A stretch of DNA of 62,286 nucleotides from the NCBI GenBank assembly GCA_031290625.1, contig JAITND010000001.1, positions 1 through 62,286 on the forward strand, in the 5' to 3' direction. The position numbers were made by a program, and so were the translations under genes. Positions 55,060 through 58,938 of the stretch are shown here, piece after piece. Within the stretch, counting starts at the first letter, position 1. Every line of letters starts with the position of its first letter. This DNA comes from Endomicrobium sp. Lineage in GTDB: Bacteria > Elusimicrobiota > Endomicrobiia > Endomicrobiales > Endomicrobiaceae. The notes beneath the pieces were generated by a model that did no database searches, was not told the DNA's origin, and saw only the letters and a list, made by a program, of their open reading frames with translations.

Positions 55060-55548
55060 ATGAAAGCTTTAAAATCTTTGGATAGAGCTTTAACAAGAAA
55101 AGAAATGAAATCAGAAGTTGCAAAACTTCAAAAAGCGGGCAAAAAAGTAGTTTTTACAAACGGCTGTTTTGATTTATTGCACTTAGGGCATATAAGCCTA
55201 TTCAAAAAAGCCAAAAGTATGGGCGATGTTTTGATAGTCGCCATAAATTCCGACAAATCCTTAAGTCGTCTTAAAGGACCTAAAAGACCATTGGTCGGCG
55301 AGAAAGACAGAGCTAAATTTATCCTTTCGTTAAAACCCGTAGATTATGCGGTTGTGTTTAACGAACATACTCCAAAAGAAATTTTAAGCGAGCTTCATCC
55401 GGATGTTTTGGTAAAAGGCGGAGATTATAAGCCGTCAGAAATAGTTGGAAGAGAATATGTAAAGAAAGTTTATAGATTTCCTTTTGTAAAAGGAAAGTCA
55501 GCGACAAATTTAATAAATTTAATAGTGGAAAGATATGGCTCAAAGTAA
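55060..55548 (+). CDS. rfaE2: D-glycero-beta-D-manno-heptose 1-phosphate adenylyltransferase (RfaE2 / HldE C-domain)
   Basis: Activates heptose 1-phosphate with ATP for lipopolysaccharide core synthesis. The nucleotidyltransferase motif TNGCFDLLHLGHISLF near 28-43 and the partner loop FVKGKSATNLI near 146 are present, as are INSDKSLSRLKGPKRPL and VLVKGGDYKP. 162 residues, the stand-alone C-domain form without the kinase half. Start at 55060 behind GAGAGGAAG. Its end overlaps thiD2 by 14 bases. Confidence 0.92.
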   Translation: MKALKSLDRALTRKEMKSEVAKLQKAGKKVVFTNGCFDLLHLGHISLFKKAKSMGDVLIVAINSDKSLSRLKGPKRPLVGEKDRAKFILSLKPVDYAVVFNEHTPKEILSELHPDVLVKGGDYKPSEIVGREYVKKVYRFPFVKGKSATNLINLIVERYGSK

Positions 55549-55975
55549 GTCTAATACAAAATCAGTTTTAAGAATTGTCGACGCAAATTTAAACCGTTGC
55601 CGTGAAGGTTTGAGAGTTGTTGAAGATAGCTTGCGTTTCATTCTTGGCGATAAGATACTTTATAAAAATATTCGCGCCATACGTCATAGCGTTGATAAAA
55701 TTTTAAGAGCAGAATATGGCGAACTTATACAAGAAAGAGATTCTGTTGAAGATTTAGGCAGACAAATGCCCGAAACAAAAAAAAAAAAATTGTCTGAAGT
55801 AATAACTGCCAATTTTAAACGAGCGGAAGAATCTTTAAGAGTTTTAGAAGAATACTCAAAAATCTTTGCTCCTAAATCTTGTGCAGATTTCAAAAAACAA
55901 AGATATTTAACTTACGCAACGGAAAAAACTGTCTATTTAAAATATAAAAAATTTCTTGATAAAAATAATGAATGA
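55535..55975 (+). CDS. thiD2: ThiD2-family HMP-phosphate kinase
   Basis: 146 residues matching the ThiD2 domain, which is also found fused in front of some ThiE proteins: RIVDANLNRCREGLRVVEDS near 14, IRAIRHSVDKIL near 46, RDSVEDLGRQMPE near 67 and NFKRAEESLRVLEEYSK near 91. The family is reported to phosphorylate HMP phosphate without salvaging HMP. With thiC at 57673 it would supply HMP pyrophosphate to ThiE. It overlaps rfaE2 by 14 bases and the next gene by 8. Confidence 0.85.
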   Translation: MAQSKSNTKSVLRIVDANLNRCREGLRVVEDSLRFILGDKILYKNIRAIRHSVDKILRAEYGELIQERDSVEDLGRQMPETKKKKLSEVITANFKRAEESLRVLEEYSKIFAPKSCADFKKQRYLTYATEKTVYLKYKKFLDKNNE

Positions 55976-57662
55976 ACAAATAAAATCGCTACTTTCTCAA
56001 GGAGAAGGGATATCCGTAGAGTTTAAAGAATGTTCAAAAGGTATCGGCAACAGCGTCTATGAAACCGTTTGCGCTTTTTTAAACGCTAAAGGCGGCGACA
56101 TACTTCTTGGAGTAAACGACAACGGCGAAGTTGTCGGAATTTCCAAAGAAAAAGCCGAGTCTTTAAAGCAGAATTTTGTTAATTCAGTAAATAATACTTC
56201 AAAACTGGCTCCGACTTTTTGTCTAAATGTTGACAAAGCGGTTGTAAACGGCAAATCTATTTTGCATATTTTTGTACCTGAAAGTTCTCAAGTTCACAGA
56301 TGCAATTCAAGAATATTTATACGCAACAACTCGGGCGATTTTGACATTACCGATAAAAATCAAGAAGTTTCAAATTTGTATTTAAGAAAGCAAAGTTCTT
56401 ATTCGGAAAATAAAATATTCCCGTACGCGGATATTTCGGATTTGCGTATTGACTTAATAGATAGAGTCAGACAAATGGCTGTTAATCATAGCAAAGACCA
56501 CCCATGGCAAAATATGTCCGATATGGATATTTTGAAAACAACAAGTTTGCGCCAACGAGACCTTCAGACAGATCAAGAAGGATTAACTTTAGCAGGAATT
56601 CTTTTGTTTGGGAAAGATGTTGTTATTTCTGCGGCAGTTCCTGCATTTAGAATAGATTTGATAAAAAGAGTTGACAATGTTGACCGATATGATGACAGAC
56701 TTGATTTAAGGACAAATCTTATAGAAGCTTATGAAAAGACTATAGAGTTTGTAAACAAGCATTTGCCTGATCCGTTTTATCTTGATGAAAAATATCACAG
56801 AGTAAGTTTAAGAGATGCTATTTTTCGCGAAGTTGTGGCAAACATGATTGTTCATAAGGAATACTTGGGCGGTGAGCCGACAAAACTTGTTATAGAGCAA
56901 GATAAGGTTTTTACGGAGAACAGCAACAGACCTTACATCCACGGCATAGTTAGTCTTTCAAATTTGAAGTCGCACCCTAAAAATCCTAATATTGCTAAAA
57001 TTTTCAGACAAATAGGCAGAGTTGAAGAACTTGGCTCGGGAGTTAGAAAGCTGTACAAATTTTGCAAATTATATTGCGGATATAATCCTATAATTTCTGA
57101 TAATGATTTGTTTAAATTTGAGCTTAAGATAAACTTTTTTAGCAAACTTACCCCGCAAGATACCATGCATGTTGGCATGCAAGTCGCCCCGCAAGATACC
57201 ATGCATGTTGGCATGCAAGATGAAAACAGAGAAAGACGTATTTTGTTTTTCTGCAAAACGCCAAAAACAAGAAATGAAATACAGCAGTATGTTAAGATTA
57301 AGAATAGGGATTATTTTAGACGACATATTTTAAATCCTCTCATTGTTGAGGGTAAGTTAGAGTTGACAATGCCGGATAAACCTAAGAGCAGAAATCAAAG
57401 ATATATTTCAAAACCAAATACCATGCATGTTGGCATGCAAGTCGCTCCGCAAGATATTGTGAGGGAAATAGACAAGGAAAAAGCAATTTTGTCGTTTTGC
57501 GCAATAGCAAGAACGAGAAATGAAATACAAAATTATGTTAAAATTAAAAACAGGGAGTACTTTAGACGCGATATTTTAAACTCTCTAATTGTCGCGGGTA
57601 AGTTGAAACTAACAATACCGGACAAGCCTAAGAGTAAAAATCAAAAATATATTTCAAAATGA
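55968..57662 (+). CDS. AlbA_2/Schlafen-type regulator with RecG-like C-terminus and duplicated winged helix
   Basis: The N-terminal 130 residues are an AlbA_2 (Schlafen) domain: GEGISVEFKECSKGI, NAKGGDILLGVNDNGEVVGI. The middle (about 150-380) is the ATP-binding, RecG-like region of this family (REVVANMIVHKEYLG, RQIGRVEELGSGVRKLY). The C-terminus holds two near-identical winged-helix units, about 419-482 and 500-564, separated by linkers built from the repeat TMHVGMQ (three copies). ATG 55968 is the best start (564 residues). It overlaps thiD2 by 8 bases and ends 10 bases before thiC, so it sits inside a thiamine operon. Role unknown. Confidence 0.8.
   Translation: MNEQIKSLLSQGEGISVEFKECSKGIGNSVYETVCAFLNAKGGDILLGVNDNGEVVGISKEKAESLKQNFVNSVNNTSKLAPTFCLNVDKAVVNGKSILHIFVPESSQVHRCNSRIFIRNNSGDFDITDKNQEVSNLYLRKQSSYSENKIFPYADISDLRIDLIDRVRQMAVNHSKDHPWQNMSDMDILKTTSLRQRDLQTDQEGLTLAGILLFGKDVVISAAVPAFRIDLIKRVDNVDRYDDRLDLRTNLIEAYEKTIEFVNKHLPDPFYLDEKYHRVSLRDAIFREVVANMIVHKEYLGGEPTKLVIEQDKVFTENSNRPYIHGIVSLSNLKSHPKNPNIAKIFRQIGRVEELGSGVRKLYKFCKLYCGYNPIISDNDLFKFELKINFFSKLTPQDTMHVGMQVAPQDTMHVGMQDENRERRILFFCKTPKTRNEIQQYVKIKNRDYFRRHILNPLIVEGKLELTMPDKPKSRNQRYISKPNTMHVGMQVAPQDIVREIDKEKAILSFCAIARTRNEIQNYVKIKNREYFRRDILNSLIVAGKLKLTIPDKPKSKNQKYISK
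57151..57450 (+). repeat. Short coding repeats with palindromic core in the AlbA_2 gene
   Basis: A 36-base unit beginning CCCCGCAAGATACCATGCAT occurs at 57151 and 57187, with a third partial copy at about 57420. Each carries TGCATG-TTGG-CATGCA, an inverted repeat. It encodes the TMHVGMQ linker. Confidence 0.8.
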
Positions 57663-57672
57663 GGAAAACAAA

Positions 57673-58938
57673 ATGACGCTTATGCAAGACGCGAAAAATA
57701 AAAAAACAAACGACTTAATAGAAGCTGCGGCTCAAGCGGAAAATCTAAGCGAAGATTTCATTAGAGAAGGCGTTGCGGCGGGGACTATAGTTATCCCTAA
57801 AAATATTAACAGAACTCTTAAAAAAATCGCGGCTGTCGGCGCAGGGCTTAAAACCAAAGTAAATGCCAATATCGGAACCTCTCCCGAACGCGTAGATTTA
57901 GCTGAAGAATTGCAAAAACTTGACGCTGCTGTCAAAGCGGGAGCTGATGCCGTTATGGATTTGTCTACTGGCGGCAATTTAACGCAAATAAGAAAAGAAA
58001 TACTTGCTGCATCTCCCGTTCAAGTAGGCGCCGTGCCTATTTATGAAGCGGCTTGTAGGACTGTAGCGAGGGGTAAAAAAATATCGCAAATTGACGGCGA
58101 ACTCTTGTTTGATATTATAGAGGAGCAAGCTGAACAGGGCGTTGATTTTATTACAGTCCACTGCGGTATAAATAAAAAAACTGTTGGGATATTAAATCGT
58201 CAAAATCGTCTTGCCGGCGCCGTAAGCAGAGGCGGATCTTTTTTGGTCAAAGCCGTAAATGCCACAGGAAAAGAAAATCCTTTGTACGAGCAGTACGACA
58301 GACTTTTGGAAATAGCAAAAAAATATGACGTAACGTTAAGTCTTGGCGATGGATTTAGACCCGGCTGTCTTTTTGACGCTTCGGATGGTCCTCAAATTGC
58401 GGAACTTTTAGTTTTAGGAGAACTTGTTTTAAGAGCAAGAGCGGCGGGAGTGCAGGCTATGATAGAAGGACCTGGACATATTCCGCTGGACCAGGTGGAA
58501 GCCAATGTAACCCTTGCCAAAAAATTAGGACACAATGCTCCTCTTTACTTTTTGGGACCTCTTGTAACTGATATAGCGCCTGGATATGACCATATAACTT
58601 CTGCGATAGGCGGAGCTTTAGCGGCGGCCAAAGGGGTAGATTTTATTTGTTATGTTACTCCAGCGGAACATTTAAGGCTTCCCGATGTCCAAGATGTCCA
58701 TGAAGGCGTAATCGCCGCAAGAATTGCGGCCCACGCGGCCGATATTGTAAAAGGCGTTCGCGGCGCAAGAGAACGCGACGACGAGATATCTAAATGGCGG
58801 AAAGCGAGAAATTGGGAAAAGCAAAAAGAGTTTTGTATTGATCCCATTAAGTTTGCAAAAGAAAGAGCTAAACTTCCGCCTCGTCAAGAAGATGTTTGCA
58901 CAATGTGCGGCGAGTTTTGTTCTATGAAAGATGAATAA
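57673..58938 (+). CDS. thiC: Phosphomethylpyrimidine synthase ThiC
   Basis: Radical-SAM rearrangement of AIR to HMP phosphate. 421 residues, the short form. Motifs: GTIVIPKNINR near 36, KVNANIGTSP near 60, GADAVMDLSTGG near 93, VPIYEA near 121, IEGPGHIPLDQVEANV near 263, LGPLVTDIAPGYDHI near 296 and C-terminal CTMCGEFC, which binds the [4Fe-4S] cluster with the spacing of the short subfamily. GAGGA lies before the ATG. No TPP riboswitch is visible upstream, unlike the thiG operon. Confidence 0.97.
   Translation: MTLMQDAKNKKTNDLIEAAAQAENLSEDFIREGVAAGTIVIPKNINRTLKKIAAVGAGLKTKVNANIGTSPERVDLAEELQKLDAAVKAGADAVMDLSTGGNLTQIRKEILAASPVQVGAVPIYEAACRTVARGKKISQIDGELLFDIIEEQAEQGVDFITVHCGINKKTVGILNRQNRLAGAVSRGGSFLVKAVNATGKENPLYEQYDRLLEIAKKYDVTLSLGDGFRPGCLFDASDGPQIAELLVLGELVLRARAAGVQAMIEGPGHIPLDQVEANVTLAKKLGHNAPLYFLGPLVTDIAPGYDHITSAIGGALAAAKGVDFICYVTPAEHLRLPDVQDVHEGVIAARIAAHAADIVKGVRGARERDDEISKWRKARNWEKQKEFCIDPIKFAKERAKLPPRQEDVCTMCGEFCSMKDE

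Follow-up and report, generated by a model that had tools for sequence, protein, structure and literature searches.

The C-terminal winged helix (wH) of an AlbA_2/Schlafen-like protein of Endomicrobium very probably binds an array of short tandem repeats within its own gene, as the lambda O protein binds its iterons. This self-binding is considered so probable because the array is conserved as DNA and its bases covary with the wH encoded by the same gene. In the arrangement proposed here, head-to-tail 12-bp sites, about one helical turn apart, would lie in the gene of their own binder. The wH would recognise each unit, with the start of its recognition helix reading bases b4, b6 and b7 and its wing reading b11, and the translated array would form a flexible linker joining the ATPase core to the wH.

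If this is correct, in a very widespread family of uncharacterised function a single stretch of DNA is at once a protein linker and the binding site of that protein. The target sequences of hundreds of uncharacterised wH proteins could then be taken from their own genes, and protein-DNA recognition could be tested on a legible code linking helix and base, of which nature supplies many variants. The arrangement would also point to cis-acting self-control of toxin-like genes and of genes linked to restriction-modification (R-M), and would explain both the repetitive linkers and the duplication of the wH.

The gene and its product

The window, that is the whole 62,286-nucleotide stretch of DNA analysed, contains an intact open reading frame on the forward strand (55968..57662, with a possible TTG start at 55956). 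It encodes an AlbA_2/Schlafen-ATPase protein of Endomicrobium, and the closest named loci are Endomicrobium metagenome-assembled genomes (MAGs). A Pfam scan places PF04326 (SLFN_AlbA_2) above its curated cut-off (65.5 bits vs 25.3, E=8e-18), gives a weak match to PF13749 (RecG-C/HATPase_c_4; 23.3 bits, cut-off 26) and identifies two C-terminal stretches of PF21247 ('Fic-like_C'), each exceeding the curated cut-off. In an AlphaFold model of mean pLDDT 85, winged helices occupy residues 415-481 and 494-563, with low-confidence, disordered linkers at residues 395-417 and 487-498. Both PF21247 domains are predicted to have the H-H-H-E-E order of a winged-helix fold.

Winged helix 1 (wH1; 57228..57410, forward strand) carries the DNA-contact residues predicted from the covariation columns, N446 (57303-57305), R447, D448 and R475 of the wing. 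In winged helix 2 (wH2; 57465..57659, forward strand) the first recognition-helix position, p1, is N528 (57549-57551), followed by R529 and E530. The domain and structure predictions agree with an earlier note on this DNA that the winged helices are duplicated; its description of them as nearly identical was mistaken, as their DNA identity is 77-78%.

The top solved-structure match to the core fold is PDB 3lmm (DIP2311), followed by Schlafen domains. These proteins resemble the present one in core fold and in the AlbA_2 domain, and the structural matches are silent on an array of sites within the gene. PADLOC returned no whole-protein match to known anti-phage defence models, the only hit being a partial one (E 4e-7) of residues 163-365 to the 876-position model Aga_SIR2-PNTD1-PNTD2.

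Repeats and palindrome in the window

Two arrays of 12-nt units, both on the forward strand, encode the linkers. Array 1 (57150..57221) contains six units, ACCCCGCAAGAT ACCATGCATGTT GGCATGCAAGTC GCCCCGCAAGAT ACCATGCATGTT GGCATGCAAGAT, which are the predicted wH binding sites and which specify linker 1 (residues 395-418) as TPQD TMHV GMQV APQD TMHV GMQD. Array 2 (57420..57455) comprises the three units ACCATGCATGTT GGCATGCAAGTC GCTCCGCAAGAT and encodes the linker between the two wHs (residues 485-496) as TMHV GMQV APQD.

The earlier note had drawn attention to a palindrome, TGCATG-TTGG-CATGCA, within three TMHVGMQ linkers. Motif searches locate its core at 57164..57181, 57200..57217 and 57422..57439, in each case as an inverted repeat formed from two adjacent units, and all three copies are coding and in frame within ORF 55956/55968-57662; by chance, 0.01 occurrences would be expected in the window. 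These linkers do not all separate the two DNA-binding units, as had been proposed, since two of the motifs precede wH1 and solely the third lies between the wHs. The 36-base coding repeats are likewise present, copies 1 and 2 forming a perfect 36-nt tandem (57151-57219) and a third copy (57418-57456) having 97% identity. This 36-mer is, however, a higher-order repeat built on the basic 12-nt/4-aa unit, of which there are nine in all.

Given the peptide MHVGMQ, the palindrome requires only two favourable synonymous codons, CAT and GGC, and with the codon usage of the window its probability is ~0.25, compared with 0.02 for random seven-codon stretches. A search for the 18-nt core with up to three mismatches found no further copy anywhere in the 1.18-Mb genome. 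The palindrome arises incidentally where two units containing ATGCA adjoin, and follows largely from the peptide; as a functional element it was rejected on these grounds, namely its probability given the peptide and its restriction to this gene.

Conservation of the array as DNA

The window gene was compared with 80 loci from bacteria and archaea, giving a set of 81 genes. Most of these, from many phyla, have a tandem-repeat linker at the equivalent position, with 4-aa units that include TPQA, TEQV, TMQA, SDQV and TPHD. A period of 4 aa prevails, with a mean best-segment score of 10.1 vs ~1.2 for periods 1-3 and 5-7. Codon choice within the arrays departs from that outside them: ACC makes up 95% of Thr codons in arrays vs 29% elsewhere in these genes, CAA 92% vs 52% of Gln codons, GCT 75% vs 26% of Ala codons and GAG 65% vs 31% of Glu codons. 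This preference holds across GC contents, even at a GC3 of 0.15-0.25, and neighbouring units have 94% of their codons in common vs 43% expected. In other members (L061, L072, L089, L102, L129, L131, L134, L136 and others) the unit is 11 nt long, so that the array passes through all three frames and yields an 11-aa peptide repeat. The constancy of codons such as ACC, the near-identity of units as DNA and the existence of 11-nt arrays together indicate that what these genes share is an array at the DNA level, each unit spanning roughly one helical turn, rather than a peptide.

Not every PF21247 wH is accompanied by an array, and in the window, as in L040, the units are mixed. A scan with codon-degenerate patterns was dominated by chance repeats. 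The strict array pattern occurs in only five of 341 Elusimicrobiota genomes, at family genes or their fragments.

Arrays with the DNA core CAAGHTACC and a 12-nt period were also observed on viral contigs (L291, L343, L284, L282, L289 and L313), inside unrelated phage genes for primase-like proteins, lysozyme and uncharacterised proteins, and at times out of frame. There are 79 such stretches; the counts for a pair of control patterns are 44 and 16, in view of which only a modest excess is claimed. On a Legionella adelaidensis plasmid, a relative that directly precedes an integrase gene (L144:1489-3024) has another wH type and another 12-nt array, AAGGCATGAGTC (RHES x7), which is possibly a further recognition dialect.

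Covariation between the winged helix and the array

Each unit was written as ACC-b4-b5-b6-CAAG-b11-T and its bases were compared with all protein columns, 405 of which lie outside the linker. Residue 446 (p1), at the start of the recognition helix, is paired with b4 (Asp-C 26/27, His-G 21/21, Asn-A 10/13, Ser-G 5/5), and residue 448 (p3) with b6, which is G in all 42 genes with Glu or Asp and otherwise mostly C (Lys/Arg-C). Residue 447 corresponds to b7 (Arg-C 55/55, Glu/Asp/Gly-G 4/5) and residue 475, in the wing, to b11 (Pro-C 42/48, Ser-T 8/8, Lys/Arg-A 7/10). Residues 446, 448, 447 and 475 rank first of the 405 columns for b4, b6, b7 and b11, respectively, although for b7 the margin is small and the signal weak. 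For 446 and b4 the excess mutual information is 1.12, with the next column at 0.37. The observed pairings match the usual preferences of amino acids for bases.

On a tree built from the core only, the number of independent pairs in the expected direction is 14.2 of 15 for D/C, 13.2 of 14 for H/G, 6.9 of 10 for N/A and 7.6 of 8 for E,D/G, with none in the opposite direction, and swapped controls on this tree gave no association. On a tree of the wH only, just two pairs fall on supported branches; this tree is too weakly supported, so the independence of branches depends on the core tree. A test limited to synonymous change, in which the middle codon is Pro and b6 is silent, associates Glu or Asp with CCG in 15 of 15 cases and other residues in one of 10 (p=5e-6).

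Closely related pairs illustrate the switch. The cores of L055 and L048 are 97% identical, the former having Asp with CAG and the latter His with GAG. Similarly, L062 (Methanosarcina) and L081 (a euryarchaeal MAG) have cores 95% identical, with His-Glu and GCG in the first and Asp-Lys and CCC in the second; their arrays are ACCGCGCAAGTC and ACCCCCCAAGCT, respectively. L310, a viral contig, encodes a Fic protein with Asp and a CCC array not far from an AlbA_2 protein with Asn and an array that is mostly ACC, each gene having an array of its own.

Outside the discovery set the rule holds in 29 of 35 rows, or in ~24 of 28 when each gene is counted once, and the misses or ties all occur where p1 is Asn (L128, L406, L310 and L122). 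In a subfamily with NRTK-motif wHs (L128, L130 and L406), b4 is G and not A, and the Asn rule fails. In the window, Asn occupies p1 of both wHs, with Asp (wH1) or Glu (wH2) at p3, and b4 is A in six of the nine units and C in three, with G at b6 in all nine; the majority A at b4 and the G at b6 thus agree with the helix-base rule.

Alternative explanations

An ordinary low-complexity peptide linker, whose tetrapeptide expands by slippage without any role as DNA, would account for the location of the arrays in a flexible, low-confidence interdomain region of the AlphaFold model and for the free variation of their copy number. It is nevertheless very improbable, as the codons are the same across phyla, contrary to the usage of each gene, and as 11-nt arrays shift the frame, which is not predicted at the peptide level. 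Furthermore, residue 448 covaries with third codon positions that are synonymous, and the residues linked to one base are chemically unlike (Pro/Gln, Glu/Ala/Asp, Met/Thr/Asn). Co-inheritance of array and wH as a module, in which the letters would correlate without binding, is equally improbable. The array does adjoin the wH, and near-identical cores do have differing modules of array and wH. However, co-inheritance should correlate many wH columns about equally, whereas the only prominent columns are those where the recognition helix begins and a single one in the wing; the pairs also obey a known stereochemical code, and even on the wH tree p1 and b4 change 22 times each.

A more substantial, though still unlikely, alternative is that the arrays are replication iterons and the protein a mobile-element initiator whose gene contains the origin. 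The anatomy is the same as that of lambda O and its origin (PMC7466680), the protein combines an ATPase with a wH, and some members are found on viral contigs or next to an integrase. Against this, many members reside in chromosomal operons, with thiD2-thiC in the window and with type I R-M genes elsewhere, and Fic enzymes possess the same module (L310). Least credible of all is a binding site formed by the 16-bp palindrome: the palindrome is real, present in three copies and confined to this gene, but ~25% of the codings of the peptide would produce it, and the other listed arrays are head-to-tail, not inverted, repeats of one unit. The more general idea in the earlier note, that DNA within the gene may be bound by the protein it encodes, gains strong support from the covariation, with the site relocated from the palindrome to the direct-repeat unit of 12 bp, or 11 bp in certain relatives. 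Binding of the direct-repeat units by the wH of the same gene accordingly remains the preferred reading.

Variation in the number of units and winged helices

Because the units are in tandem, they would be expected to gain and lose copies through slippage, and recombination between arrays may add or delete an entire wH. Both kinds of change had been anticipated in the earlier note, and the comparison bears this out. Copy number is not constant among relatives, arrays in the genes scored having ~2-9 units, and sequence comparison supports variation in unit number among them. Over 3.78 kb, two viral contigs (L150 and L154) are identical apart from a single SNP and one 12-nt unit (3 vs 2). The sample that yielded L150 (3300020025) also contains a third contig, L159, which starts within an array of four or more units; this suggests that unit number may be polymorphic within one sample. 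In that sample, L150 and L159 end or begin at the array with differing numbers of units. A search for copy-number variation within species found no match in E. coli and, for L149, none in plasmids or phages.

Tandem wHs with arrays are also present in L035, L138 (at least three wHs) and L047. In contrast to the window gene, L027, from the same genus, has a single wH, which shares 93% DNA identity with wH2 of the window and 76% with wH1. The left flank of its array is that of array 1 and the right flank that of array 2. The duplication of the wH therefore appears to predate the split, and recombination between the arrays would then have removed wH1 from L027. As the L027 gene is otherwise broken, this loss may date from its decay.

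Relation to known systems

A 12-nt/4-aa coding tandem repeat is also found in the TAEL repeats of HsdS in type I R-M systems, where copy number alters the spacing of the DNA-binding parts. There the repeats are a protein spacer, whereas in the present genes the bound site appears to be the repeat DNA. Phage lambda has until now provided the main known case of a binder with sites in its own gene. The middle of its replication gene contains the direct repeats to which the O protein binds (PMC7466680, PMC3985674). In Stx phages, two extra iterons add 13 aa to the O protein (PMC7466680, PMC3985674). Both systems have tandem direct repeats within the gene that encode an interdomain linker, binding in the present case being predicted by covariation. 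The lambda iterons, however, are 19 bp long and serve replication, and the units described here are 11-12 bp. The proteins also differ in fold, being AlbA_2-ATPase or Fic proteins whose hosts are bacteria, archaea and phages, and their helix-base code switches between relatives. The Pfam scan of the gene product named the domains listed above, and the likeness to lambda O drawn here is one of anatomy.

The sites of RptR, a repressor of type I R-M islands, are short direct repeats within its own locus (PMC12255303). It resembles the present family in its association with type I R-M genes and in its use of such repeats, but differs in being a small dimeric repressor, a different protein that acts at promoter sites and has no coding array. 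No equivalent was found in the literature searched (AlbA_2, linkers, own-gene binding sites and array peptides), an absence that does not prove novelty.

Possible purpose and genomic context

The wH and an upstream coding array of its own sites probably constitute a portable 'self-address' module, common to unrelated effectors (AlbA_2/Schlafen-like ATPases and Fic enzymes) of bacteria, archaea and phages. Each effector would dock on its own gene, and specificity would evolve as three or four residues of the helix or wing change together with their corresponding bases. The likeliest purpose of docking, put forward tentatively, is cis-acting autoregulation, in which a complex on the 3' part of the gene would limit transcription of that gene and the downstream operon; a replication or mobile-element function like that of lambda O appears doubtful. 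Within 250 bp on either side of the genes, matches to a gene's own unit equal those to shuffled units, revealing no site beside the gene, so a classical promoter operator is unsupported. An operator near the promoter or downstream was rejected on the same basis. Taken with the uniqueness of the core in the genome and the restriction of the strict pattern to family genes, the lack of a flanking site makes an effect in cis, on the gene or its operon, the most likely. Several same-genus relatives are pseudogenes, with stops or large deletions, and the function is thus dispensable in those genomes.

The family often adjoins type I R-M genes: among 114 neighbouring ORFs (L034-L113), N6_Mtase occurs 10 times, Methylase_S 9, ResIII 9 and HSDR_N 8. 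In G094/G088 (L369:1848-5731), a shortened family copy lies between genes that, by sequence recognition, are presumably hsdS-like and hsdR-like. At both ends of 1-4540 of L369, on the minus strand, two array-bearing fragments of a family gene, ~3.9 kb apart, flank an hsdR-like gene and have in common a 154-bp duplication of 99% identity. In Endomicrobium the gene lies within a thiamine operon (window 55535-58938; L034 and L038). ThiD2 matches two upstream neighbours, that of L038 being thiD2, and the next gene in the window resembles thiC, as judged by sequence recognition.
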